Positions 4,988 through 19,058 of a stretch of DNA of 64,000 nt are shown here, in pieces. Below the pieces are notes generated by a model. It was not told where the DNA came from and did no database searches. It saw nothing but the letters and a program-made list of their open reading frames with translations. A program made the translations under genes and the position numbers. This DNA is from Pseudomonadota bacterium (lineage in GTDB: Bacteria > Pseudomonadota > Gammaproteobacteria > Xanthomonadales > SZUA-38), in assembly GCA_039033415.1 (NCBI GenBank), contig JBCCCR010000003.1:124001-188000 (forward strand), in the 5' to 3' direction. Within the stretch, counting starts at the first letter, position 1. Every line of letters starts with the position of its first letter.

Positions 4988-5251
4988 GGGCCTGCTCACG
5001 ATTTTGGATACGGCGATCGATTTTGGTTGCTAGTCTGTTCATGGCGACAGGCGCCCCTATGAGAGTTAGGCACAAGACAGGGCTTGAGTATGCGGAGCCC
5101 CTCATTGGCTTTACGTGAAAATTTACCGAAACTCGAATTGTACGGCCTCCGTTCATCAGATTTTCCGCGGGCAGATCGCGGATTAGCAAAAAAGGACCCT
5201 CGGTGGGCACTGTGCTAAGTTCCACAAGCCTTCATTGTCCAAGGTGACTGA

Positions 5252-5992
5252 GTGTTCCTGTCACGCCTCCTTCGTATTCGCCCGCTTCTGGAAAACCAGA
5301 CGGGTCGCTACCTGCTCTATGCAGCTGGTGAGACGATTCTGATCGTGCTGGGCATTCTGATCGCCCTGCAAATCGACAGCTGGAATCAGGACCGGCAGGA
5401 TCAAAAGGCGGAACTGAGTTACATGCAATCGCTGATTGAAGACCTGGAGATCGACATCGAAGAGGCCGACGGCGTATTGGCTGCGCTTCGAAACCACATC
5501 GACGCGACTCAGGATCTCGCAGAAATGCTGGCAGACCCAGAGGTTGTTTCAAACTCCAATGAGGCTTACGCGCTGTGGACCAACAATATGGGTTTCCCAG
5601 ACTTTTTGAGCAACGACCGAACGCTGCGACAACTCAAGAGCGACGGCGGTTTTTCGCTCATCCAAACCCAAAGAGTGACGGTTTCCATCATCGAGTATGA
5701 GCGACTGCTAAAAGAGTTCTACGGGCAGCAGGAAATCTGCAACCAGCTTCTCATTCAGCAAGGGCCCTACCTTCAGCTTTTCGATACGGTTGCCATGGCT
5801 CAGACGCCCACCTCTCCCGTGCCGCTCACCGAGGCCGGAAAGCGCGGCTTGAGCCAGGCCTACACAGACCGCAAACTCTGGATGCTTGCGCTGGTTGGTC
5901 TTGTTCGGCGGCTGGAAGCGGTTCGCTCTGCCAGTGCCGAGCTTGCGACGCTCATCCAGACCGAATATGCGCTCTTACACCCTGGGCTCTGA
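5252..5992 (+). CDS. DUF6090-like single-pass membrane protein
   Basis: A 246-residue protein starting with GTG, with AAGGTG six bases upstream. The N-terminal pattern (LLENQTGRYLLYAAGETI, a hydrophobic helix of about 20 residues ending in ALQIDSWNQ) matches the conserved start of DUF6090 family proteins, which have one N-terminal membrane helix followed by a soluble helical domain with coiled-coil character. The function of the family is unknown. Charged heptad-like segments follow (SLIEDLEIDIEEADGVLAAL). The CpeT-like gene lies downstream on the same strand, about 130 bases from its likely start, so co-transcription is possible. Confidence 0.75.
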   Translation: MFLSRLLRIRPLLENQTGRYLLYAAGETILIVLGILIALQIDSWNQDRQDQKAELSYMQSLIEDLEIDIEEADGVLAALRNHIDATQDLAEMLADPEVVSNSNEAYALWTNNMGFPDFLSNDRTLRQLKSDGGFSLIQTQRVTVSIIEYERLLKEFYGQQEICNQLLIQQGPYLQLFDTVAMAQTPTSPVPLTEAGKRGLSQAYTDRKLWMLALVGLVRRLEAVRSASAELATLIQTEYALLHPGL

Positions 5993-6120
5993 TGACTCGT
6001 TCTTCGGCAGCTAAGGATCGACCGCAGCTTTTGCTGGTCTACGATGTCGCTGTGCGCAGCTCCAGGAGAGCATCAGGCAATGACGGATTCAGAGGCAAGC
6101 AGGACCGGGAGGTAAGAATC

Positions 6121-7155
6121 ATGGGAACGTGCATTGCAACGACAACGAGAAGGGCTAAACGCTGGCTGACGCTGATTGTCCTGACAGCACTCTGCGCCTC
6201 AGCGACGGCCCAGGAACGCAGCTATACGCTGCTCGAACGCGAGCTGGAATACCTGATGGAGCTCTGGCCAGGTGACTACGACAATCGGGAACAGGTGCAG
6301 TTCGACTTTAACGTCGGCAAGCGGTCACCTGCTCAGGGCGGACATAAGCGGGTGCACAGCCAAATTCGCCGGGTCGACCTGCCGACGTTCGGTGAACACG
6401 TCCTTTATGCAAAGACTTTTGGTGACAACAATTCAGACAACGTTATTCGGCATCATCTCTATGAACTAAAAGCCGACGAAACAGCTAAAGCGATCCGGAT
6501 CCGGGTCCACCAATTCAAGAACGGTGGGCGGTATTCCGGCGCTGCCGCGAATCCCGCGATTCTTGACAGCATGACGCGTGACGACACAACCGTTGCAGCG
6601 GGCTGCGATCTACTGTTGACCCGAGATGTCGATGCGATCGTCGGCGGCACCGCGCCGGGCGCATGCGCAGCGGCAAGCGAAAACGGCGGTGAGAGCCTTG
6701 ACTACCAGGTGCGGATTTCGGAGACCGGCTACTGGTTTCACGATCGTAAGATCACCAATGACTCGTCGGCGGAACCACAACTTCCCTGGTACCAGCTGGA
6801 GCGAGTTCGCTGGTTTCAGTGCATGCTCGATTTCCCGCGCGAGGACGGCGGCCGACCCGTGAACACCGTCTCGTACGTCCGCATTCACGATCAAGGAGGG
6901 ACTTATCCCTTTACCTATCGAGATGGGCGCGACATGGTTTTTACCTTTCGCAACACCTGGTCGTACGGCATGCAACGGGAGACGCTGGTCATCGTCATCC
7001 AGGAAGGTGATGAGACCGGCAAAACCCTCGTCTACGGCTGGGCGGAGCCTGGCTCTGATCGGATCGGCGTTAACCCAGGCTGGATAAGACTGCAGTGCGA
7101 CCTGGATACACCGAAGAAGCGAAAATTCCAGCAGTGGCTGCGGCCAGACAGCTGA
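6121..7155 (+). CDS. Secreted CpcT/CpeT-like protein
   Basis: The frame is open from 5992, but the ATG at 6121 is the likely start: GGGAGGT lies just upstream and the new N-terminus is a clear signal peptide (basic MGTCIATTTRRAKR, hydrophobic TLIVLTALCASA, cleavage near TAQ). The mature ~315 residues follow the CpcT/CpeT chromophore-lyase fold: LMELWPGDYDNREQV at the start, RIRVHQFKN, then a GCDLLLTRD segment and the GGTAPGACAA/SLDYQVRIS block near the usual PGxxC region. In cyanobacteria this family attaches bilins to phycobiliproteins. No phycobiliprotein is expected here, so another hydrophobic ligand is likely (inference). The 3' end has a degraded second copy at 10296-10394. Confidence 0.72.
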   Translation: MGTCIATTTRRAKRWLTLIVLTALCASATAQERSYTLLERELEYLMELWPGDYDNREQVQFDFNVGKRSPAQGGHKRVHSQIRRVDLPTFGEHVLYAKTFGDNNSDNVIRHHLYELKADETAKAIRIRVHQFKNGGRYSGAAANPAILDSMTRDDTTVAAGCDLLLTRDVDAIVGGTAPGACAAASENGGESLDYQVRISETGYWFHDRKITNDSSAEPQLPWYQLERVRWFQCMLDFPREDGGRPVNTVSYVRIHDQGGTYPFTYRDGRDMVFTFRNTWSYGMQRETLVIVIQEGDETGKTLVYGWAEPGSDRIGVNPGWIRLQCDLDTPKKRKFQQWLRPDS

Positions 7156-7184
7156 CCGTCACGACGGGTTGCGCCAAAGAGTCA

Positions 7185-7472
7185 CGCGCGTGTGAACGCG
7201 CACATAGTCCTGCAGCCCTGCACGTAGACAATCTCGAATAGCCCCAGGCGGATATCCTTGCGGTTTGCCCGGATGAAGATCGACGCCTGAGCTGCCTCCC
7301 CAGATTCACCTGCCGCCGGATCTCCTCCCTGAACGCTGGCCTGGAACCGCTGGGGCGCTCGAAAGAAACGATCAAACGTGATTGGCTTCAGCAGGTAGTC
7401 GACGGCCTCCAGCTCGAAGCCCTCCAGGGCGTAGTCCCGATAGGCGGTGGTAAAGATAACCAGCGGCCGCTG
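7185..7472 (-). pseudogene. Fragment of a LytTR-type response regulator gene
   Basis: Read on the minus strand from 7472, this gives RPLVIFTTAYRDYALEGFEL, then EAVDYLLKPITFDRFFRAPQ, and later ASIFIRANRKDIRLGL and EIVYVQG. It aligns with the middle of the intact LytTR regulator at 14920-15642 (IFTTAYRDYALEGFELEAVD, RVNRKDVRLALADVVYVQG). The first ~75 codons (phosphoacceptor region) and the end of the DNA-binding domain are missing. A one-base deletion after the VYVQG codons shifts the frame, after which the DNA still reads as LQDYVRVHT in another frame. The fragment lies directly against the stop codon of the FG-GAP gene, so the breakpoint is at about 7472. It is non-functional as a regulator. 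Confidence 0.88.
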
Positions 7473-10169
7473 CTACTCAAAGCTATCGGAAAACAGTAGG
7501 TCCGCCCGGATGCTGATCGTAAAGATCTGAGGTTGCGAGGTGTCCTGTCCGCCATTGGCGACGCCACCGTTGTCGCTGGCGACCACGGTAAAACTGGAGC
7601 TACCGCTCTCGCCGGGTGCTGGTGTGTAAGTAAGGGTGCCCGCGGCATCGACCGTGGGAGGAACGGTGAACAGCGTTGGGTTGGCCACGCCGGCAACTAG
7701 GACGGTCACTTGTTGGCCCGCCTCGTTAGGTGCACCGGGGTCTAGGCTGGCCCAGTTGCTGACCGTCTGCGGACCGGCGTCTTCGCCGACTGGCGGCGGG
7801 TCGTCAGCGTTCAGTACCGGCGGATCGTTAACCGAATTAACCGTGATGGTAAAAGTCTGGAAGCCCGACACGTTGACCCCGCCGTTGGCCATGCCGCCGG
7901 AGTCTACGACCCGCACATTAAAGGTACTCGTGCCGCTGACGTCCTGGCGCGGGTCATAGATCAGATTCCCCAAGGTGTCGATCGTAGGCAGCACAGAAAA
8001 CATGCCAGGATTAGAGACCGCTGCAACCTGATAGGTAAGCGCAAACTGGTTGCTCTCGTTTGGGCCGGGATCGAAAGCTGACCATCCGGAAACCGTTACG
8101 CCGCTCGGGTCCTCGTTGACCGCAGGCGGATCGGCAGCAACAAAACTCGGCGCGTCATTGACCGGCATGATGTCCAGCGTTACGTTCAGCAGGTTTTCGT
8201 CGCTAGCGAACCCCCCGAGAGCGCCGACCGCGCTGGAGATGTCCACGCTATCACCAGGCACTCGCCAGCGCCCGTCCCACATACGCACCGCTAGGCCGCC
8301 GGGCTGTCCGGAGTAGTTTAACGCCGGCACAAAACGCAGCCAGGCGTCGTTGCCGAGGACAAGTGCAGAAGTGTCGCTGAGGGCGCTCGGCAGGTCCTGC
8401 CAGTCGACGCCGTTGAGGGCATACTGCCATTGGCCCTGACCGGGCGTAGAGGAATCGCCGATGACGCCGACGCCGCCAAACGCATCAACGTCGAGGTAGT
8501 TGAGCGCTACGGTGACGTCTAGTCGGCTGCCGCTGGCGTTGGCATCGTCCTCGAGTTCGTCGAGCAGAAATGAGGTTGCTCCACCGACCCGCAGCGGTGC
8601 CGCGTTGCCGAACACCACGTAAGTCTCGCCTTCATCATCCGCGCTTGGATCAGCGCTATCGGCGCCAATGATCACATCGTCGATGCCGTCGCCGTTAACG
8701 TCGCCGGCGCGGCTGACCGAGCGTCCCGAGCGATCATCAGCGTCGACGCCGTTGAGCACGAAACCATTGCTGCCATCCAGGTCTGCCAGATTGAGGCTGG
8801 CAGGAAAGCCCGAATCGCTGCCAAACACCACGTAGGTCTCGCCTCCATTATTGACACCCGGATTTGCGAGATAGGCGCCAATGATCACATCATCAATGCC
8901 GTCGCCGTTGACGTCGCCAGCGCCATTGACCGAGCGGCCCGACAAGTCATTGGCGTCGATGCCGGTGAGTACAAAGCCGCTGCTGCCGTCCAGATCGGCC
9001 AGATTGAAACTGGCGGGGAAACCCAAATCGGTGCCAAACACCACGTAAGTCTCGCCCTCATTTAGGGCGTTCGAATTCGCGAAGTAGGCGCCAATGATCA
9101 CGTCGTCAATGCCGTCGCCGTTGATGTCGCCAGCGCCGCTAACCGAGCGGCCCGAGCGATCATTAGCCCCAATGCCGTTAAGCAAAAAGCCACTGCTGCC
9201 GTCCAGATCAGCCAGATTGAGGCTTGCAGGAAAACCCGTTGCGCGGCCGAACACGATATAGGTCTCGCCTTCAGAGGTGCCCATCAGATCGGCGAGATAG
9301 GCACCAAGGATCACATCGTCAATGCCGTCGCCGTTGACGTCGCCGGCCCCGCTGACCGAGCGGCCCGAGAAATCACCAGCGTCGATGCCGTTGAGTACAA
9401 AGCCGTCGCTGCCGTCCAGGTCAGCAAGATTCAGGCTGGCGGGGAAACCCGAATCGCTGCCAAATACCACGTAGGTCTCGCCCTCATAGTTAGTGCCGGA
9501 ACCGGCGTAGGGGGCACCAATGATCACATCGTCAATGCCATCCCCGTTGACGTCCCCCGCGCCGCTAACCGAGCGGCCCGAGCGGTCATAGTTGTCAATG
9601 CCGTTGAGGACAAAGCCGCTGCTGCCGTCGAGGCTTGCCAAATTGAGACTGGCGGGAAAACCCGTTGTACGGCCGAACACCACGTAGGTCTCGCCTTCAT
9701 AGTCGGCGCTCTGATCAGCCCCGTAGGCGCCAATAATCAAATCGTCGATGCCGTCACCATTGACGTCACCGGCGCCACTGACGGCGTCGCCAGAGAAGTC
9801 ACTGGCGTCGATGCCTTCGAGCAAAAAACCAGTGCTGCCGTCCAGATCAGCCAGATTCAGACTCGCAGGAAATCCGGTTGCACGGCCAAACACCACGTAG
9901 GTCTCACCCTCATTGCTGGTGCCGGGATCGGCGAGATCTGCGCCAATGATCACATCGTCGATGCCGTCGCCGTTGACGTCCCCCGCGCCGCTGACGGAGC
10001 GGCCGGAAAAATCATTGGCATCAATGCCGAAGAGCACAAAGCCGTTACTGCCGTCCAGCTGACTCAGTTCAATGCTTTCCTGCACGAACGCCGAGCCAGG
10101 AGAAAGTACGGCGGCTATGGCGATAGCCAATGGCCCCTTCCTAAGCTTCTGGCTGCGTGCTCGATTCAT
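7473..10169 (-). CDS. Exported seven-bladed FG-GAP beta-propeller protein
   Basis: The start at 10169 (MNRARSQKL) gives a good signal peptide (LAIAIAAVLSPGSAFVQ); the upstream ATG at 10202 has no binding site. Seven tandem 71-residue repeats follow, each with the calcium-loop motif DVNGDGIDDVIIGA and the strand GETYVVFG, as in integrin-alpha FG-GAP blades, so one closed seven-bladed propeller is predicted. Then come an Ig-like segment (SSTPGQGQWQYALNGVDW) and two cadherin-like repeats (PPAVNEDPSGVTVSGW; PPPVGEDAGPQTVSNW). The protein ends LLFSDSFE. A paralogue with the same architecture is at 28071-30764. A secreted calcium-binding surface protein is likely; no enzyme site is seen. It sits between two gene fragments left by a rearrangement. 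Confidence 0.93.
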   Translation of the reverse strand: MNRARSQKLRKGPLAIAIAAVLSPGSAFVQESIELSQLDGSNGFVLFGIDANDFSGRSVSGAGDVNGDGIDDVIIGADLADPGTSNEGETYVVFGRATGFPASLNLADLDGSTGFLLEGIDASDFSGDAVSGAGDVNGDGIDDLIIGAYGADQSADYEGETYVVFGRTTGFPASLNLASLDGSSGFVLNGIDNYDRSGRSVSGAGDVNGDGIDDVIIGAPYAGSGTNYEGETYVVFGSDSGFPASLNLADLDGSDGFVLNGIDAGDFSGRSVSGAGDVNGDGIDDVILGAYLADLMGTSEGETYIVFGRATGFPASLNLADLDGSSGFLLNGIGANDRSGRSVSGAGDINGDGIDDVIIGAYFANSNALNEGETYVVFGTDLGFPASFNLADLDGSSGFVLTGIDANDLSGRSVNGAGDVNGDGIDDVIIGAYLANPGVNNGGETYVVFGSDSGFPASLNLADLDGSNGFVLNGVDADDRSGRSVSRAGDVNGDGIDDVIIGADSADPSADDEGETYVVFGNAAPLRVGGATSFLLDELEDDANASGSRLDVTVALNYLDVDAFGGVGVIGDSSTPGQGQWQYALNGVDWQDLPSALSDTSALVLGNDAWLRFVPALNYSGQPGGLAVRMWDGRWRVPGDSVDISSAVGALGGFASDENLLNVTLDIMPVNDAPSFVAADPPAVNEDPSGVTVSGWSAFDPGPNESNQFALTYQVAAVSNPGMFSVLPTIDTLGNLIYDPRQDVSGTSTFNVRVVDSGGMANGGVNVSGFQTFTITVNSVNDPPVLNADDPPPVGEDAGPQTVSNWASLDPGAPNEAGQQVTVLVAGVANPTLFTVPPTVDAAGTLTYTPAPGESGSSSFTVVASDNGGVANGGQDTSQPQIFTISIRADLLFSDSFE
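8577..10067 (-). repeat. Seven tandem 213-bp units inside the FG-GAP gene
   Basis: Seven in-frame units of 71 codons (10067 down to 8577) are strongly similar at DNA level. The calcium-loop segment near each GATCACATCGTC recurs about every 213 bases (about 8668, 8881, 9094, 9305, 9519, 9732, 9947). The seventh unit diverges over its last ten codons. In the paralogous gene the repeats differ in length and sequence, so this copy appears recently homogenised or expanded. Confidence 0.9.
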
Positions 10170-10295
10170 TGTTTTCGTCTCTACGCGTGTTGCAAGCATC
10201 ATACGAAGCTCGTGGCCAGAATTCTGTGACGAGTATGTAACGGTTTTTCAGCGATGGATAGCCAGGTCGATACTGAGGCGCAATCCGCCTGGGCG
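10170..10295. other. Upstream region of the FG-GAP gene
   Basis: Contains the likely leader of the minus-strand FG-GAP gene. A weak purine run (AGAGACG) lies about eight bases before its ATG. No clear promoter hexamers or hairpins stand out. Similarity to the cpeT-like gene begins at about 10296. Confidence 0.4.
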
Positions 10296-10394
10296 CTGAC
10301 TGCGTTGGCCTTGAACCCGGGCTGGATCCGGCTTCAGTGCGTCCTGGACACGCCAAAGACGCGGAAATTCCAGCAGTGGCTGCGGGCCGGATAG
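10296..10394 (+). pseudogene. 3' remnant of a second cpeT-like gene
   Basis: The plus strand reads LNPGWIRLQCVLDTPKTRKF then QQWLRAG and a TAG stop at 10392-10394. This closely matches the last 27 codons of the intact CpeT-like gene (VNPGWIRLQCDLDTPKKRKF, QQWLRPDS). The rest of the gene is absent and there is no start, so it is a truncated copy. In the intact copy the LytTR fragment follows about 30 bases after the stop; here the 10464-14711 gene follows instead. Confidence 0.87.
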
Positions 10395-10463
10395 CTAATC
10401 CAACCCTGCGACACCTGCAAGTCGTCGCACCGACACCATCTGCGGGTCCCGCCCCTTGGCGAG

Positions 10464-13400
10464 TTAGAGCTCCTCGAAACCGCTCAGGAATATCGTCTCT
10501 GGTGCAAAGCTCACCGAAAAGGTTTGAGTCATCGAGCTGTCCTGACCACCATCAGCTGTTCCACCGTCGTCCACAAGCTGCGCTGCGACCGTGGCGCTTC
10601 CCTGGTTGCCGCTGAGCGTGAAACTCAGCGTCCCGTCATTGCTGATCGCAACTGAATCGATTACGCCGGCAGGATCGGCCTGGACGTTGAGCTGGAAGGT
10701 CAAATTCTGGCTGACTTCGTCAGGACCGCCGGCACTGATGCCAGTTGCCCAAGCAGGCAGGGTCTGAGTCAGGGGTTGACCGTCAACGATGGTGACATCC
10801 GGGCCCGCAGCAAAACTTGGCGCGTCATTTACGGGCTGAACGGTGATTGTCACCGTACCCGTTGCGGTGATGAAGCCGTCAGTGATGTCGTAAGTAAAGC
10901 TCGCAACGCCGACCGCGTCGGCCGCAGGCTGGAAGTCAAAGTCGCCATTGGCGCTCAAGGTCACCTGCCCGCCTACGCCAGACGCGGCAAAGGTCCCAAC
11001 AGTAGTCACCGTGATCACCTCGTTACCCTCGTCTCCGGCGTCAGCACCGTTACCGTTGTCGTTCAGCACGTTGCCAACCACGCCGGAATCCTCAAGCGTC
11101 GAAAAGTCGTCTGGCAACGCTGCGAGGCTGTCGGTCGAGCCGGTAACGGTGATTTCCACCGTCTGGGTGGCAGACGTCGAAGAGTTTTCAGCGGTGTAGC
11201 TGAAGGATACGACCGCGTTTTGCCCAGCGTTTAAGTTCTCGAACGTGCTTCCCGGATCATAGGTAAAGCTGCCGTCGGCGGCGACGTTCAGCGTTCCTCC
11301 GGCCATTGGCGCCGTATCACTACCTACCGCGGGCTGCCCATCGATTGCGGTGATGGTCAGGGCGCCGACCACCGCAACGTCGTTCTGGAGCAGGCCCGTT
11401 GCGGCATCGACGGTAAGGGTTGCGTCCTCATCCACGGTATAGGTGTCTTGGGTCAGCTGCGGCGCGACAAACAGCTGAGTCACGGTAGCGTCGCCAACGG
11501 CGGGCGTATCGGGATCGTCCGACACGGTCGTGGGAAGATTGGTGGCGGTCAGCATGACCTGCGCGCTCGTTTGCGTGACCCCCATGCCCAAGGGATCGGT
11601 GACGTTCGCATCCCAGGTGATGGTGACGGTTCTACCGGGGTCAACCTGCCCAAGATCTACACCGACATCGGTATCGCCGGGGCGGTTACCCAGCAGCACC
11701 ATGCCAAAATCTGAGGTAACCGACCCGAGAACCAAAGTCGTCTCCGCGCCGCCCAGAGATACCAGGGTGCCGCATAGTTCCGGCGTATTGCCGTTGTTGC
11801 TCAATACCGCCGTGTAGCGAATGGTGTCTCCACCGCCGGCGACCCCGTCGCCATTGTCGACGGCGATTGCGTCCGTGAGCGTCAAACTGACGTCTCTCAG
11901 TATGACCGAGGTCACCGTCGGATCGCTAAAGCTTGTGGCGTCTAACGGGTCGTCGAAACTGCTTGTAAACTCCGCTGTCGTGAGCAGGCCGGTTGTGCTG
12001 ACCTCGGTAACGGCGCCGGGCGCTGCGGTGATCGTACCCTGGAACGTGATCGTGGTTGTTGCTCCCTCAAACACGGTACCAAGGGCGACTTCGACTCGGC
12101 TGTCCCCAGCCGTATTGCCAGTGAGAATGGTACCCTGACCGGCGGTTACCGAACCGACATCAAGATCGATTCCGGCCCCGAGATCAAAGGCCGCGAGCGT
12201 GCTGGTCAGGTCACCGACGCCCGATCCTACACGCGCCGTGTACTGCAAGATATCGCCGGAGCTCACGACCAGGTCGTTGTCGACATCGGTAAGCAGCACC
12301 CCCTCGAGTGTTGCGGTCCGGCTGGAGTCAACTTCGACCCAGGCGAGGGCCGTGTCGGAGCCCGTCAACGTGAGGGTAAGCGCGCCGATGTTGGTGAAGT
12401 CCGCCCCGCTTCCGGCAGTTGGCGTAAAGTCTCGGAAGTCTACTGTGGTGATGCCGCCGGCGAGGCTGGGGAAAATAACCACCGCCGCCCCACTAAAGGA
12501 CGAGACATTGGAGTCGTCGGTGAAAGCATTCAGCTCAAAATCAACCGCGCCATCGAAGGCGATCTCCAGACGATCGAGCAGGCCGCCGCTGGTCAGATCA
12601 ACCCCGCCGAGGCCATCTCCATCCACCGTACCAAAATCTCCATCGGGTCCGTCCCATACCAGCGATACCGAATCGGTGGCGTCCTGACCCGTAACGACAA
12701 TCCGACCACCCGTGAGATCGACATTCGTGATGTTGGCAAGGTTTGCGGCGGTGATGTCGATCTCGCCTCCAAGCGCGGCGCCGTTCACCAACGTCACGCC
12801 AGCGTTCGCGCCGTTGGCGGACAAAGAAGCCGAAATCTCGAACTGATCGACCGGCAATCCCCGGTGAGGCACCTGGTATAGCTGCACGTCATCAAAATCG
12901 ACGCCGTCGTTAGGGAGCAATTCATCGTCGTGCTGCTGCAGTTTTAGCTGACTGAGGGAGGACAAATCCTGCGCCGGTGAAGCGGTCCGCAAGACCTGGG
13001 AAACATCCACGGGCCCGGTGGATCGCCAGGTGCCAAACGTGCCATCGTTCCAGTCGAACAGCAGCTGATAGGCGTCAGTATCCTTACCCCGCACGAAGAC
13101 ACCGTCCTCGGGATTGTCTTCATCCCCAACGTTAAAGTAGTTGGTTTCGAAAAAGAGCTTGTCCCGTGAGGGTCTAATCGCTAAACCATCAAAGGTCAGC
13201 ACCAGCTGGTTTTCATCCAGATTTCCGGCGTCAAGGGAGGCGGCCTGAACGCCGCTACTGGCGTTACCGCGGGCAAACTGCACCCTTTCATCCAGCGTCG
13301 CCACGTGCGACCAGCCGATAATGCCGCCGATTGGCGCGAAAGACTCATTTTGGTAGATCAGCTGCGGCCCTACGCTCTCGAAGTCTTCGTTCACGGGCAG

Positions 13401-14711
13401 GCTGGCGACCTCTGCCGTGTCGATCATCAGGACAGCGGTGTCGTTGCCGGGATTCGGGTCACCAGAAAGGCCGGATCGTGCGCTCAGCGTGTATTCGCCA
13501 AACTTGAACCCGGGATTGATCGTTTGCAGCAAATCGTAGGTGGTCTCGCCCACGCCTTGGGTATAAGCCCCATCCGGTTGAAATGGATCCAGCGGCACGC
13601 CGGCAGCAACCGAGGGCACCACATCGTCAATAAACACCGGGAGCCCGTTCGGCAGATCAATGCGCACCTGGATCGGGATGTTAGTTAAGGGCACCGTCGT
13701 GAAGTTTTTGAGCAAGATGCGTATGGTTTCATCCACTCTAGGGTTGTAAGGATCGAGTCCCGGGATCTCGACGCTGATGATGCCCACGTCGTCCTCCTTT
13801 GGCGCAATCCGAATGTCGTCAACGCTGATGCCGTCGGTATTGACGGGAAAATTATCGTTCTGGGAGAACCTGATCTGGGCCTGATCGGTGAGCGTCTGCG
13901 CGTTCACACGCATAAATTCACTGAGGTTGATAGAAGTTACGTCGGTCCAGTTTCCGTCGTTCGAGTTAGCACCAAAGCTATAGACCTCTATCCACGGATC
14001 CAGTGGGCTGCCTCGCAACTCGACGATGTCAGTCGCATCGCTTTCATCGTCATGGTCATACCAGTTGAAATCAAGCAACAGCTCCCGGCCATCAGCAACG
14101 GTCACCGCCTGCTGCCCGGTCCAGGTGAGGATCAGCCGATTGGTGCTTCTCCCATCTGGGTTGTCCATGGTTGCGATGCCCATGCCGTCAGGGTCGAAAT
14201 CTGTCCGATGGCTAAGTCGACCGTCGCCTGTGACTTCGAGCAGATAGGAAAAACCGTCGAAGCCGCTGAATACGGCGTCCGCGCGGTAGCTGGTCACGGC
14301 GGGGCGAATCTCAAAGTCCTGGAAAAAAGGGATCGGTTGGGCGGTAACCGTAATAAAGTTGTTGTCCGTTAGGTCCATGTCCGTGACCAGCGTGCTCTCG
14401 GCGCGAAGCACCTCGTAACCGGCCGAAAGATCGAAGACCGTTGGGGTCGTGAAAACGATCGTGGAAGTCGCCGGGATACTGGCGATAGTCTCCAGCGAAA
14501 CAATTTCGGTGCCCCCCTGCGGAGTCACAAATATGGTCAGGGGCACATTGGTGACTTCCGAGGCCGTGTTGTTGCTGACCAGCACGCTGATCGTGGCGTT
14601 CGCGCTCAGGCTGTCAGCCTGAACGCCCTGAACCGTGACGATGTTTTGCGAGTACGCTGCGCCCGCCCACAGGGCAACAACAGCGACCAAGTCCCTGAAT
14701 TTCATCCGCAT
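10464..14711 (-). CDS. Large secreted multidomain adhesin-like protein
   Basis: A 1415-residue protein with a signal peptide (LVAVVALWAGAAYSQ) and GGGGA before the ATG at 14711. By eye the order is: a CARDB-like domain (~25-125), a jelly-roll-like segment (FFQDFEIRPAV, ~130-305), a second CARDB-like domain (DDVGIISVEIPGLDPYNPRV), a second jelly-roll (VNEDFESVGPQLIY), an Ig/beta segment, two DUF11-like repeats (SSGDILQYTARV; GGGDTIRYTAVLSNNGNTPE), then VCBS/cadherin-like repeats (DTYTVDEDATLTVD; LPDDFSTLEDSGVVGNVLND). The last domain (DDGGTADGGQDSS) resembles the last domain of both FG-GAP proteins, and the end IFLSGFEEL is the shared motif. No catalytic domain is visible. It lies between the cpeT-like remnant and the LytTR regulator, probably as an insertion. 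Confidence 0.9.
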   Translation of the reverse strand: MRMKFRDLVAVVALWAGAAYSQNIVTVQGVQADSLSANATISVLVSNNTASEVTNVPLTIFVTPQGGTEIVSLETIASIPATSTIVFTTPTVFDLSAGYEVLRAESTLVTDMDLTDNNFITVTAQPIPFFQDFEIRPAVTSYRADAVFSGFDGFSYLLEVTGDGRLSHRTDFDPDGMGIATMDNPDGRSTNRLILTWTGQQAVTVADGRELLLDFNWYDHDDESDATDIVELRGSPLDPWIEVYSFGANSNDGNWTDVTSINLSEFMRVNAQTLTDQAQIRFSQNDNFPVNTDGISVDDIRIAPKEDDVGIISVEIPGLDPYNPRVDETIRILLKNFTTVPLTNIPIQVRIDLPNGLPVFIDDVVPSVAAGVPLDPFQPDGAYTQGVGETTYDLLQTINPGFKFGEYTLSARSGLSGDPNPGNDTAVLMIDTAEVASLPVNEDFESVGPQLIYQNESFAPIGGIIGWSHVATLDERVQFARGNASSGVQAASLDAGNLDENQLVLTFDGLAIRPSRDKLFFETNYFNVGDEDNPEDGVFVRGKDTDAYQLLFDWNDGTFGTWRSTGPVDVSQVLRTASPAQDLSSLSQLKLQQHDDELLPNDGVDFDDVQLYQVPHRGLPVDQFEISASLSANGANAGVTLVNGAALGGEIDITAANLANITNVDLTGGRIVVTGQDATDSVSLVWDGPDGDFGTVDGDGLGGVDLTSGGLLDRLEIAFDGAVDFELNAFTDDSNVSSFSGAAVVIFPSLAGGITTVDFRDFTPTAGSGADFTNIGALTLTLTGSDTALAWVEVDSSRTATLEGVLLTDVDNDLVVSSGDILQYTARVGSGVGDLTSTLAAFDLGAGIDLDVGSVTAGQGTILTGNTAGDSRVEVALGTVFEGATTTITFQGTITAAPGAVTEVSTTGLLTTAEFTSSFDDPLDATSFSDPTVTSVILRDVSLTLTDAIAVDNGDGVAGGGDTIRYTAVLSNNGNTPELCGTLVSLGGAETTLVLGSVTSDFGMVLLGNRPGDTDVGVDLGQVDPGRTVTITWDANVTDPLGMGVTQTSAQVMLTATNLPTTVSDDPDTPAVGDATVTQLFVAPQLTQDTYTVDEDATLTVDAATGLLQNDVAVVGALTITAIDGQPAVGSDTAPMAGGTLNVAADGSFTYDPGSTFENLNAGQNAVVSFSYTAENSSTSATQTVEITVTGSTDSLAALPDDFSTLEDSGVVGNVLNDNGNGADAGDEGNEVITVTTVGTFAASGVGGQVTLSANGDFDFQPAADAVGVASFTYDITDGFITATGTVTITVQPVNDAPSFAAGPDVTIVDGQPLTQTLPAWATGISAGGPDEVSQNLTFQLNVQADPAGVIDSVAISNDGTLSFTLSGNQGSATVAAQLVDDGGTADGGQDSSMTQTFSVSFAPETIFLSGFEEL

Positions 14712-14919
14712 CTCAATTCCCCAGAATCTTGTACAACACTAACACAGCGGTCGAGTTGTAGAAGACGTCGCGGTCAGGGAGTTTTGTGACCGTTTTCTCA
14801 TTGGCCACTAACAACTGATACGTACGGTCAAATAATGATTCTAACGACAGGATTGGCCGTAAGAATGGCGGGGCTCCGCGGGCGTACTTATGATCGGAAA
14901 CGAGCGTTGACCCGATGCA

Positions 14920-15642
14920 TTAGGCGCTTGAATGAGTTTTCAGGATTTCGGCAACGCCTGCTCGGTAGGTGTCACCGATAGGGATCTCGAGGTCACCAAG
15001 CTCCACGTCGTGGCGGGCTATGGCCGTAACTTTGCTGAGGTTAACCAAATACGAGCGATGCACCCGGAGAAACCCTTCTCCCAGCCTTTGCGACAGGGAA
15101 GTCATAGTCTCTTTCACGGTAAATACGCTGTTCTGCGTGTGAACTCGCACGTAGTCCTTCAGCCCCTGGACGTAGACGACGTCCGCGAGCGCCAGGCGGA
15201 CGTCTTTGCGGTTGACTCGGATGAAGAATGAGGCCTGGGCGGCCTCTCCCGAGTCCTCTTGCTTCAGCCTGCCCGCCTGGGCAATTGCGAGAAATCGCTG
15301 GGTCGCCCGAAAGAAACGCGCAAAGGTAATCGGTTTTAACAGGTAATCGACCGCCTCGAGCTCAAAACCCTCCAGCGCGTAGTCTCGATAGGCCGTGGTA
15401 AAGATCACTCGGGGACGATGCACTAGTCCCTGGTAAAAATCTGTGCCCTTCAGCATCGGCATCTCGATATCGAGAAACAGCAGATCCACCGGTTGAGTGG
15501 ATAGCAGCTCACTGGCCTCCACAGCGCTGGCGCATGATGCAACGAGCTCAAAACTTGGAAGCTGCTTTAGGTGAGTTTCGATGAGCTCTCGGCCCAATGC
15601 CTCGTCATCCACCACCAAACAGCGGTATCGGCGCTGGGTCAT
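14920..15642 (-). CDS. LytTR-family response regulator
   Basis: A 240-residue regulator with an N-terminal receiver domain and a C-terminal LytTR DNA-binding domain. Visible receiver residues are D12/D13 (VVDDEALG), the phosphoacceptor D58 (LLFLDIEMP) and the conserved lysine in DYLLKPI. The LytTR part runs from about residue 140 (FFIRVNRKDVRLALADVVYV through GFLRVHRSYLVNLSKVTAI). The gene overlaps the 3' end of the kinase gene by four bases, so the two are translationally coupled and form a two-component pair. The target genes are unknown; an earlier association with the CpeT-like gene is suggested by the broken duplicate at 7185-7472. Confidence 0.95.
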   Translation of the reverse strand: MTQRRYRCLVVDDEALGRELIETHLKQLPSFELVASCASAVEASELLSTQPVDLLFLDIEMPMLKGTDFYQGLVHRPRVIFTTAYRDYALEGFELEAVDYLLKPITFARFFRATQRFLAIAQAGRLKQEDSGEAAQASFFIRVNRKDVRLALADVVYVQGLKDYVRVHTQNSVFTVKETMTSLSQRLGEGFLRVHRSYLVNLSKVTAIARHDVELGDLEIPIGDTYRAGVAEILKTHSSA

Positions 15643-16712
15643 GCGGCCGTGGGGACCAGTTCGAGGCGAGCCTGATAGCGGCGATCAGATTCGTTGACGA
15701 CCAGCTCGTGCGTAGCTGGATACAGCAGGTCGAGCTGGCGGTGCAGATTGGCCAGGCCAATGCCGGCCCTCACGTCCTTTTTATCCGAAGACTGTCCCGG
15801 TTTGCTGTTGCTGACTTCAAAAACTACATGATGCCTATCTGCCTTGAGCGATACGTCAACCGTCGCCTGATTCAGTTCCTGGCTAGCCGAGTGTTTAAAG
15901 GCGTTCTCCAGGAGCGTCAGGAACAGCAGCGGCGCAATTCTGGCACCCTCGTCGACACGATGTTCGAAGGTAACCATTATTCTGTCACCAAACCTGAGTC
16001 GCTCAAGGTCGATGTAATCTTCGATCATCTGGATCTCTTTGTGCAGCGAAACGTCGGGGCTGTTGCATTGATACAGGACGTAGTCGAGGATGCCCGCGAG
16101 TTTCGCCACCGCCTCGGGAGTCTGGTCGGAGCGCTTAATCGCCAGCGCGTAAATATTGTTGAGCGTATTGAATATAAAGTGTGGGTTGAGCTGGTTTTTC
16201 AACGCCTCGAGCTCAGCCGCCCGCTTTTGATCACGCAGCGCCAGCACGCTCTGCTGTCGGCGATAGTAGCTGACCGCAAGAAGGACAGCGGCGGGAAAGA
16301 AAAGCACCGGCAGCTTGGACAAGACGATATATCTGATGACCCATGAGAAGCCGAGCCGCTCGATCAGAGTGAGGTCGCTGATCGCCTGATACATCGTGGC
16401 GTAGGTGTCTGGGTACGCTGGCTCCAGATAGAGGTAGCTCAGCAGGATGTTGAGTTCTGCCGCCAGCACCAGTACCGCGATCAGGAGCAGAGAAAAGGTC
16501 TTGACCTGACCCCGGTCCAGCCAGCGGGGGACCAGATACTTAAGCGCAATCAGCGCCACCATCGCCTGCAGTAGGGTGATGGTTCCGACCACTTCCACCA
16601 CCTCCCTTGGCGATGAGTAGCGATACCACGCAGGCCCGACGTTCAGCAAGAATACGACGGCCCAGAACCCCAGCTGGAAAAGGGAAGCGCTGGACAAAAA
16701 ACGGACGGTCAC
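15639..16712 (-). CDS. LytS/YehU-type sensor histidine kinase
   Basis: Membrane sensor that should phosphorylate the adjacent LytTR regulator. The N-terminal half has four or more hydrophobic helices (FQLGFWAVVFLLNVGPAW; TLLQAMVALIALKYLVP; FSLLLIAVLVLAAEL; LSKLPVLFFPAAVLLAV). The C-terminal half carries the His_kinase signature with the phospho-histidine in LNPHFIFNTLNN, the N box TLLENAFKHS and the G box AGIGLANLHRQL. I place the start at the GTG at 16712 (VTVRFLSS) because AAGGAG lies about nine bases upstream; the longer frame to 16826 has no binding site and no membrane character. The signal sensed is unknown. The gene diverges from the SDR gene across ~260 bases with no obvious operator. 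Confidence 0.93.
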   Translation of the reverse strand: MTVRFLSSASLFQLGFWAVVFLLNVGPAWYRYSSPREVVEVVGTITLLQAMVALIALKYLVPRWLDRGQVKTFSLLLIAVLVLAAELNILLSYLYLEPAYPDTYATMYQAISDLTLIERLGFSWVIRYIVLSKLPVLFFPAAVLLAVSYYRRQQSVLALRDQKRAAELEALKNQLNPHFIFNTLNNIYALAIKRSDQTPEAVAKLAGILDYVLYQCNSPDVSLHKEIQMIEDYIDLERLRFGDRIMVTFEHRVDEGARIAPLLFLTLLENAFKHSASQELNQATVDVSLKADRHHVVFEVSNSKPGQSSDKKDVRAGIGLANLHRQLDLLYPATHELVVNESDRRYQARLELVPTAA

Positions 16713-16971
16713 CGGGCGGCAACTCCTTCGTCGGACGGGTGGGAGAGACTCGCAATGTATCGAAATTTGCGGGCGCCGCCCAAGCAATGCTTGCGGACCG
16801 GGAAATTTAGTCGACGAAACACCCATTGGGATCGACGAACGGAGGCGCCTCCCAATGGCCAGAACTTCTTAACGATTGGTCGAGAAATGCCGCCAGCCGG
16901 TCGACGAGCGCATAGTTCCGACGTTTGTCCGAGACACGATTTCAGCCATGTTTCAGATCCGGAGCTTTTTG

Positions 16972-17961
16972 ATGCACCGACTCAACATCGGCTTTATTTT
17001 TACAACGTGTCTCGCCTGCCTGCTGATCAGCGATTCCTGGGCAGCTGATGTTTCCTCAACCGGCAGAAAAACCGTACTGGTTACGGGCGCCAGCTCCGGT
17101 ATCGGGAGACAAATTGCGCTGACGCTCGCCGAAAACGGCTTTTTTGTGTTCGCGGGCGCCCGGAAGGCCGGGGACATCGCCGAGCTGAGCGAGCTTGAGA
17201 ACATCCAGGGAGTTCGCCTGGACGTCACAATCCAGTCGGACATCGATGCTGCCGTTGAAACCGTTCAGCAGCATGGACAGGGTCTGTTTGGCCTAGTGAA
17301 TAACGCCGGGGTGTTTATCTACGATCCGCTCATTGAAGTCAGCGAGAAGGACATGCGTTTTGTCCTGGATGTAAACGTACTCGGACCATACCGGGTGACC
17401 AAAGCCTTTGCCCCGCTTTTGATGGAAAGCAAAGGCCGGATCAGCACCATCGGCTCAATTTCTGGTGTCACTTCCGGGCGTCTGATGGGCCCCTACGGCA
17501 TGAGCAAGCACGCGATTGAAAGCTTCACCGACTCGCTGGCTGCCGAAATGGCGAAACTTGACGTTGCCGTCAGCGTCATTGAGCCAGGCAACTTTCGCTC
17601 CGACATCATGAAAAACATGAAGCAGCGAAGCGACGATCAGAGCAGCGACGCGCCCGAATCACTTTTTGATGCGGAGATCTCTCGCTTCGCCGGGTTTACC
17701 CAGACCGATCGGTCACGACACCTGGCACCGACTCCCGTCGCGCTGGCCACCCTGGACTTCCTTTCTGCCGAGCAACCCAAACGCCGCTACCTCGTCGCAC
17801 CCAACGCTCGCGAGGCGGAGTTTGCCATTCGAAGCGCCCTCAAGCGGGTCGCTGAACTCAATCATGACCAGCCCTATTCGCAGTCACGTGAGGCTTTGAT
17901 CACCACGCTGGATGAGCTCATGACCGAGCTGTCCAGCAACAGCCACGCGGAAAAACAGTAA
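16972..17961 (+). CDS. Short-chain dehydrogenase with N-terminal signal or anchor
   Basis: A classical SDR of 329 residues. The NAD(P) motif GASSGIG follows KTVLVT, NNAGV marks strand beta-4, the catalytic serine is in STIGSISG, and Y-G-M-S-K supplies tyrosine and lysine. The start at 16972 has GGAG seven bases upstream and yields a signal-like N-terminus (LNIGFIFTTCLACLLISDSWA). SDRs need cytoplasmic cofactor and are rarely exported, so this segment may be an uncleaved membrane anchor. Substrate unknown. The NTF2-like gene follows 100 bases downstream on the same strand. Confidence 0.88.
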   Translation: MHRLNIGFIFTTCLACLLISDSWAADVSSTGRKTVLVTGASSGIGRQIALTLAENGFFVFAGARKAGDIAELSELENIQGVRLDVTIQSDIDAAVETVQQHGQGLFGLVNNAGVFIYDPLIEVSEKDMRFVLDVNVLGPYRVTKAFAPLLMESKGRISTIGSISGVTSGRLMGPYGMSKHAIESFTDSLAAEMAKLDVAVSVIEPGNFRSDIMKNMKQRSDDQSSDAPESLFDAEISRFAGFTQTDRSRHLAPTPVALATLDFLSAEQPKRRYLVAPNAREAEFAIRSALKRVAELNHDQPYSQSREALITTLDELMTELSSNSHAEKQ

Positions 17962-18063
17962 ACGGAACCTCAGAGGCGCCTCGGCCCTGCGCCCGCGCGG
18001 CCTCCACGCTTCAAAGCATTCCGACCACTCGAACCAACGCTCTAACACCACGAGGAACGATTG

Positions 18064-18588
18064 ATGAAAACCACCAAAATCCTGATCATGGCCACGATGC
18101 TGCTGGTATGCAGCACTTCCAATGCGGACCCAGAAAACAGCAACGCCCCACAATACGAGCGTGAGGCCGTCGCGTTCTTTGACGCGTACCTCGGGGTATA
18201 CAACCGCCGCTTTGGCAGGCCAGAACTCAGCGAAACGTTCCGTCAGGAGTTAAGCGAAATTGTTTATTTTCCGGTGCTTCAGTCACCGGCCTCAGGCCAA
18301 CCTCGCGTGCCGGCTTCTATGGAAAAGTTTACTCGAGGCTTTGAAGGTTTTGTCACGATGCTAGAGCGTAAGGGCGTGCATCGGCTGGCCTGGGAGTCGC
18401 AGGAATTTCATCAGCTATCGGAGAACAAGCTGCTGGCCAACAATGTCGGCGTTGGTTACTCCGTTGAAGGTGAACCGGTCTACCACACCGCATCGCTCTA
18501 TCTGGTCTACCAGACGGATGCGGGCTGGAAAATTACCCTGTTCAGCCCCTATGACGTCGACAAGCCTCTGCACCTCAGCAGCGAATAG
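18064..18588 (+). CDS. Small secreted NTF2-like (DUF6841-type) protein
   Basis: A 174-residue protein with a clear signal peptide (MKTTKILIMATMLLVCSTSNA) and AGGAA just before the ATG. The mature part (FFDAYLGVYNRRFG; VYFPVL; EKFTRGFEGFVTMLERKG; HTASLYLVYQTDAGWKITLF) follows the helix-helix-sheet order of SnoaL/NTF2-like proteins, closest to the DUF6841 pattern as I recall it. Such domains bind or convert small hydrophobic molecules; no catalytic residue can be assigned. Its position downstream of the SDR suggests a shared pathway, which is inference. Confidence 0.7.
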   Translation: MKTTKILIMATMLLVCSTSNADPENSNAPQYEREAVAFFDAYLGVYNRRFGRPELSETFRQELSEIVYFPVLQSPASGQPRVPASMEKFTRGFEGFVTMLERKGVHRLAWESQEFHQLSENKLLANNVGVGYSVEGEPVYHTASLYLVYQTDAGWKITLFSPYDVDKPLHLSSE

Positions 18589-18626
18589 CTACCGATTGCG
18601 GAGGGCCGGCTGAGTTGGCGGCACCA

Positions 18627-18661
18627 CGGCAGATCGATGCGTAAGACCCATCGATCTGCCG
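18627..18661. terminator. Perfect 13-bp hairpin between convergent genes
   Basis: GGCAGATCGATG (18628-18639) and its exact complement CATCGATCTGCC (18649-18660) form a 12-bp stem with a 9-base loop; the flanking C and G add a 13th pair. It lies between the stop of the NTF2-like gene and the stop of the convergent VOC gene, so it can act on both strands. There is no strong T-tract, only GGTCTTGTTC on the plus strand. Confidence 0.65.
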
Positions 18662-18683
18662 GTCTTGTTCAGATTGAACAGCG

Positions 18684-19058
18684 TCAGGACGGCGAGCAGA
18701 AGAAGTTCAGCTTGTTACCGTCCGGATCTCGAAAATAGCCGGCGTAAAAACCCTCCCCGCGGGGCCCCGGCGCCCCTTCGTCAGCACCACCCAACTCAAG
18801 CGCCTTCTGATGCAGCGTGTCGACCTGCTCGGTCGAATCCACCATCAGCGCCACCATCACTCCGTTGCCAACCGTTGCGGCGTTTCCATCAAAAGGTTTG
18901 GTCAGCGCCACTCCTGGCTTGGCGGGATCGACGGCCCAGGCCACAAACACACCCTCGTGTTCCATAAAGCGTTTGCCGCCCATCGCGCCGATCAGCGCGT
19001 CATAAAATGTTGCGGCCCGTGCCATGTCGTTTGTTCCCAGCGTTACATAACCAATCAT
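18684..19058 (-). CDS. VOC-superfamily (glyoxalase-like) protein
   Basis: A 124-residue protein starting at 19058, with GGAGGAA just upstream. The fold is visible as two beta-alpha-beta-beta-beta units: MIGYVTLGTNDMARAATFYD then GVMVALMVDSTEQVDTLHQ and GYFRDPDGNKLNFF. The FRDPDGN turn and the terminal strand are typical of this superfamily. Substrate and metal use cannot be read from the sequence; members include lactoylglutathione lyase-like and dioxygenase-like enzymes. A LexA-type box 45-64 bases upstream of the start could place it under SOS control. Confidence 0.88.
   Translation of the reverse strand: MIGYVTLGTNDMARAATFYDALIGAMGGKRFMEHEGVFVAWAVDPAKPGVALTKPFDGNAATVGNGVMVALMVDSTEQVDTLHQKALELGGADEGAPGPRGEGFYAGYFRDPDGNKLNFFCSPS

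Follow-up and report, generated by a model that had tools for sequence, protein, structure and literature searches.

How did parts of a cpeT gene and of a lytTR regulator gene come to lie twice, and partly broken, around two large exoprotein genes? The window studied here is a stretch of 64,000 nucleotides of contig C3 from a genome of 6.4 Mb in 62 contigs (G000). The locus is bounded by a DUF6090 gene on the left and an SDR gene on the right. Between them lie, in order, cpeT (A), a piece of lytTR (A), an FG-GAP gene, the tail of another cpeT (B), a second exoprotein gene, lytTR (B) and a kinase gene. A sequence-only reading of the window had proposed that cpeT-lytTR was duplicated in tandem with subsequent loss, and that the two exoprotein genes, which carry a C-terminal motif, belong to a class of genes that may move or insert as cassettes.

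Organization of the locus

All the pieces named in that reading were found by alignment and Pfam analysis, namely the intact cpeT, the broken lytTR, the FG-GAP gene, the cpeT remnant, the gene at 10464-14711 and the lytTR-kinase pair; the domains detected are CpeT, FG-GAP with Big_9, Big_9/Cadherin, Response_reg with LytTR, and His_kinase. The DUF6090 gene of the left flank (5252-5992, plus strand, PF19578) is syntenic with that of G001 (81% by blastn), which is the nearest relative compared and the sole other genome of the same genus in the set. The cpeT-like gene ending at 7155 is intact, as had been said. Its called ORF (5992-7155) opens with MTRSSAAKDRPQLLLVYD, which matches the start of a DCC1-like gene of 142 amino acids in G001, and since these first 18 codons belong to such a gene, the likely start of cpeT is at 6121. 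In cpeT A (6121-7155, plus strand, PF06206) 250 of 343 residues are identical to G001 cpeT.

The lytTR A fragment lies on the minus strand. It had been described as truncated and frameshifted at 7185-7472, and both features stand; it aligns over 7188-7473, with the 5' part and about 200 bp of the 3' part of the gene absent. Its alignment to 15135-15421 has 214 identities in 287 columns, 72 mismatches and one gap, which is the one-base frameshift, and scores 139, whereas 200 shuffles gave 17 at most. The fragment's 5' break falls on the stop codon (7473-7475) of the FG-GAP/Big_9 exoprotein gene (7473-10202, minus strand; PF01839 seven times, PF17963; C-terminus LLFSDSFE). This gene belongs to a multi-copy family, with six more near full-length copies of 50-66% similarity elsewhere in G000 and others in G001 and G003. 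The cpeT B remnant (plus strand), placed earlier at 10296-10394, exists with corrected limits of 10287-10396 and represents the last ~110 bp of the gene. Its alignment with 7047-7153 (score 58, shuffle maximum 14) has 87 identities, 20 mismatches and 3 gap columns; against G001 cpeT the remnant is 85.8% identical over 106 bp. A partial cpeT-lytTR neighbourhood is thus present twice, as had been proposed.

The second exoprotein gene (10464-14711, minus strand; Big_9/Cadherin by Pfam; C-terminus IFLSGFEEL) lies between cpeT B and lytTR B, and no full-length relative of it was found in G001, G002 or G003. Both exoprotein genes had been placed exactly at the junctions; this is true of the FG-GAP gene, at the A/B join, and the second gene is situated within the B part. 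On the same strand follow lytTR B (14920-15642), an intact response regulator with Response_reg and LytTR domains, and its paired histidine kinase gene (15639-16826, PF06580). At the amino acid level the kinase is 91% identical to that of G001, and so is lytTR B over residues 1-233, its final few codons being unlike.

Arrangement in related genomes

In the suggested comparison with relatives, G001 has the uninterrupted arrangement. In its locus (L060), cpeT (15867-16988) is followed by a spacer of 26 bp, lytTR (17015-17731, minus strand) and the kinase gene, with flanks as in the window. Between two aligned blocks the window has 7789 bp and G001 has 45, and the extra DNA of the window holds both exoprotein genes and both remnants. 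The gene at 10464-14711 occupies the place of the 26-bp cpeT-lytTR spacer.

A second scar lies upstream. Homology to G001 reaches position 6044 and then skips 3001 bp of G001, comprising the remainder of the DCC1-like gene and a beta-propeller gene, up to the cpeT upstream region. The DCC1-like gene is whole in G001 (142 amino acids, PF04134, E 2.2e-10), and only its first 18 codons (5992-6045, plus strand) are left in the window, fused ahead of cpeT; the truncated gene encodes a DCC1-like thiol-disulfide oxidoreductase. This jump in homology indicates that most of the DCC1-like gene was lost from the window or replaced there, and the beta-propeller gene is either a gain of G001 or a loss of the window.

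Of 398 genomes of the order, only two, G001 and that of the window itself, have the cpeT subtype of this locus, and none of the 398 was found to carry an intact A version. A scan of genome contigs for a donor returned a single locus. LytTR was also sought in six other genomes, and none of its matches there lies close to any of the cpeT matches listed. In another family of the order, a kinase, a LytTR regulator and a CpeT-like gene are adjacent and co-directional (L027, G013:C6), with cpeT in the opposite orientation to that of the window and G001; this single occurrence hints at a functional link. G001 also has a third remnant of cpeT (L062 8889-9165, contig C35), which comprises 277 bp from the 3' end, is 78% identical to cpeT A and has no lytTR match beside it. 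When its surroundings were searched in G000, only cpeT A and a 68% match to the right-hand neighbour gene, on contig C62, were found. An MFS transporter gene is also placed differently in the two genomes (G000:C3 119009-120217, G001:C96 150598-151824; 76% amino acid identity) and adjoins a GGDEF gene in G001 only.

Relationship and age of the copies

Dating of the copies by pairwise alignment, as had been advised, was carried out for lytTR and revealed that copies A and B are not closest relatives. Over 258 sites of the lytTR core, A and B differ at 69, A and G001 at 67, and B and G001 at 25; every one of 2000 bootstraps has B and G001 as the closest pair. The corresponding counts for fourfold sites are 24/35 (A-B), 21/32 (A-G001) and 6/44 (B-G001). 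Changes on the A branch are distributed as 7.5/11/37 over the three codon positions (p 6e-7 in a binomial test against equal rates). In a drifting pseudogene the changes would be distributed evenly, so this third-position bias suggests that most of the divergence of A accrued while it was a working gene. The distances place fragment A in an old lineage predating the split of lytTR B and G001 and, together with the bias, argue that A is not a recent tandem copy. As judged from these substitutions, lytTR A represents an older, long-functional lineage.

The divergence of cpeT A from G001 at fourfold sites (0.556; 72/127 on the trimmed gene) fits this picture, being reached in 20 of 233 orthologue pairs on three contig pairs, where the median is 0.414. 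The corresponding values are 0.308 for the DUF6090 gene (104 sites), 0.298 for lytTR B and 0.191 for the kinase. Syntenic genes to the right of the kinase are as diverged as cpeT A (SDR 0.567, others 0.635 and 0.582), and high divergence alone is therefore no proof that A is foreign. The region reads as a mosaic of close and distant genes. Over G000:C3 98000-175000, fourfold divergence from G001:C96 is patchy, with 0.17-0.30 in some blocks and 0.45-0.65 in their neighbours, as if alleles had been exchanged between lineages. The cpeT tails, a short alignment of 84 columns, have 74 identities for A-G001, 75 for B-G001 and 70 for A-B, and the columns agreeing in one pair only number 7 for B and G001, 6 for A and G001 and 2 for A and B; tails of this length leave the placement of cpeT B in the tree undecided.

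Origin of the arrangement

In the coordinates of L060, the cpeT B tail corresponds to 16883-16986 and the lytTR A piece to 17223-17510, and with these positions a single join accounts for both truncations. From the coordinates we infer that the locus is probably a scar left by recombination, in which two diverged versions of a single cpeT-lytTR-kinase locus were joined out of register. Version A would account for cpeT A and the lytTR A piece on the left, and version B for the last ~110 bp of cpeT, the intact lytTR and the kinase on the right. Joining A on the left at 17510 to B on the right at 16883 would double an overlap of 628 bp, from the end of cpeT to mid-lytTR. No gene loss would be required save the ~200 bp absent inside the A remnant, and the cell still has cpeT and lytTR in one intact copy each, together with the kinase. 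The FG-GAP gene, lying exactly at the join, probably came in at that event as cargo on incoming DNA, and the homologous end of that DNA would be the cpeT-lytTR neighbourhood. The route could be either an illegitimate join next to a homologous anchor or the integration of a circularised fragment by single crossover. The gene at 10464-14711 would have been gained between cpeT B and lytTR B, at an undated time. A point against the model is that exoprotein genes in two separate places may require a gain for each. On the evidence of two genomes, version B could be the native one. Non-homologous junctions lie at 6044/6045, at 7473 and between 10203 and 10290; no clear microhomology is evident at them by eye.

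Simple tandem duplication of cpeT-lytTR followed by loss is not supported, as the lytTR copies are not sisters and one unequal join makes both remnants. A recent duplication of this kind within the lineage is very improbable and was rejected on the lytTR distances. The order of the pieces, the single frameshift and the truncations would suit it, but lytTR B is nearer to G001 than to A in every bootstrap and the changes in A are unlike those of a drifting pseudogene, so that only a later swap of B for a G001-like allele would rescue it. Duplication of a cpeT-lytTR(-kinase) unit before the species split, with different halves lost here and the array of G001 collapsed by recombination between repeats, is a possible though less probable history. 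It agrees with the order of the copies and with the age of A, which is older than the B-G001 split, and collapse between direct repeats would yield a clean site like that of G001. Against it, two independent partial losses and a complete loss in G001 are needed in place of one unequal join, a second kinase or the rest of either broken gene was not found within 5000-19000, and neither of the two genomes among 398 with this cpeT subtype has an intact array. An assembly error is unlikely. That the assembly fused two co-occurring strains would be conceivable for a genome in 62 contigs, given that two diverged alleles of one locus adjoin here and that the record matching G001 is a MAG. Such a chimera is nonetheless improbable, because the joins fall in non-homologous sequence away from the shared stretches, the FG-GAP gene is complete with its nearest paralogues just 50-66% alike, and fragment A bears decay marks typical of an old pseudogene. 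Integration into the 3' end of cpeT, as might be considered for a remnant that retains the 3' end of the gene, is not favoured, given the lack of an integrase and repeats that are 79% alike.

Mobility of the motif-bearing genes

It had also been suggested that such motif-bearing genes may be mobile or inserted as cassettes, an idea that receives no special support from our data; a stronger form, in which they are dedicated mobile cassettes which choose their sites and broke this locus, is very improbable. Clean insertions, with a short side of up to 200 bp and a long side of at least 700 bp, number 33 on three contig pairs. Seven of them hold a motif gene, three that gene alone, as a cassette would; the other 26 have none, which means that gain or loss of gene-sized segments is general in these genomes. 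ORFs were called by a simple longest-first pick with no gene finder, syntenic genes were counted once per genome, and the comparison omitted a single gap of more than 20 kb, 58.8 kb long in G000, together with those contig ends that the collinear chain did not reach. On this basis, 23 of 61 motif ORFs on the three contig pairs have no positional counterpart, compared with 170 of the 687 remaining ORFs (p 0.022). A slightly altered motif pattern gives lineage-specific counts of 25/65 and 168/683 (p 0.013), and for ORFs of 400 aa or more under that pattern 22/53 and 84/292 (p 0.048). The excess is due to the contig of the window itself and disappears when that contig is left out (11/40 vs 116/460; odds ratio 1.12, p 0.44), and dedicated cassette mobility was rejected.

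The insert codes for nothing but the two exoproteins, and no recombinase gene was found in it. When 22 motif ORFs were compared by eye, their 3' ends and the 80 bp downstream had nothing in common except the coding motif, and no shared sequence was found at the clean junctions inspected. Among 74 gaps of 300 bp to 20 kb, only two, this locus and one more, have copies of flanking DNA inside the insert, which makes this locus unusual among insertions and not typical of them. In G001:C108, an insert edge at 100013-100321 repeats the left flank (98182-98490) at 92.6% and adjoins an ORF of 741 aa that is missing from G000 at that position.

Comparison with known systems

The scar suggests a route into a regulatory locus for large accessory exoprotein genes, to which the retained, diverged target copy bears witness. 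Partial duplicate genes beside an insert are not necessarily tandem copies, and here comparison with the sister genome altered the reading. A wider view, in which cpeT-lytTR and other conserved neighbourhoods serve as homology arms and receive, by one-sided recombination, DNA fragments from diverged relatives with exoprotein genes on them, is doubtful; if true, partial diverged flank copies would be fossils revealing gains of surface proteins and their donors.

In homology-facilitated illegitimate recombination, foreign DNA is inserted beside a homologous anchor and the insertion is paired with deletion of resident DNA (PMC3240628). The window may likewise have a homologous stretch beside a non-homologous junction, and it would show a resident loss of similar size, since 4003 bp of G001 stand in the place of 6045-10286 (4242 bp) if the latter is the incoming piece. 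Unlike the events described in that report, a diverged copy of the target was kept and duplicated here; most of those events had a microhomology of 3-10 bp, whereas here none is evident by eye and no anchor boundary was located. The same report describes partial target duplications left by single crossing-over of circularised DNA, as at the end of lacZ. The window resembles this in that the cargo has, for each target gene, a complete copy on one side and a truncated one on the other, in the same order, but its repeats are 75-79% identical, implying that the arm was already diverged or that the event is old. Kirchberger et al. proposed homology-facilitated illegitimate recombination for displaced gene remnants in Vibrio (PMC5361080). 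As in the T6SS arrays of Vibrio cholerae treated there, an incoming module would have displaced part of a resident locus and left older pieces downstream; in contrast to those arrays, the window has a single scar, with no array and no effector-immunity logic. In E. coli, small variable segments ascribed to illegitimate recombination have been described as common (PMC2884548). The locus is no mobile cassette system; as a well-preserved scar it records genome reshuffling in an informative but ordinary way and adds one more example to a known process.
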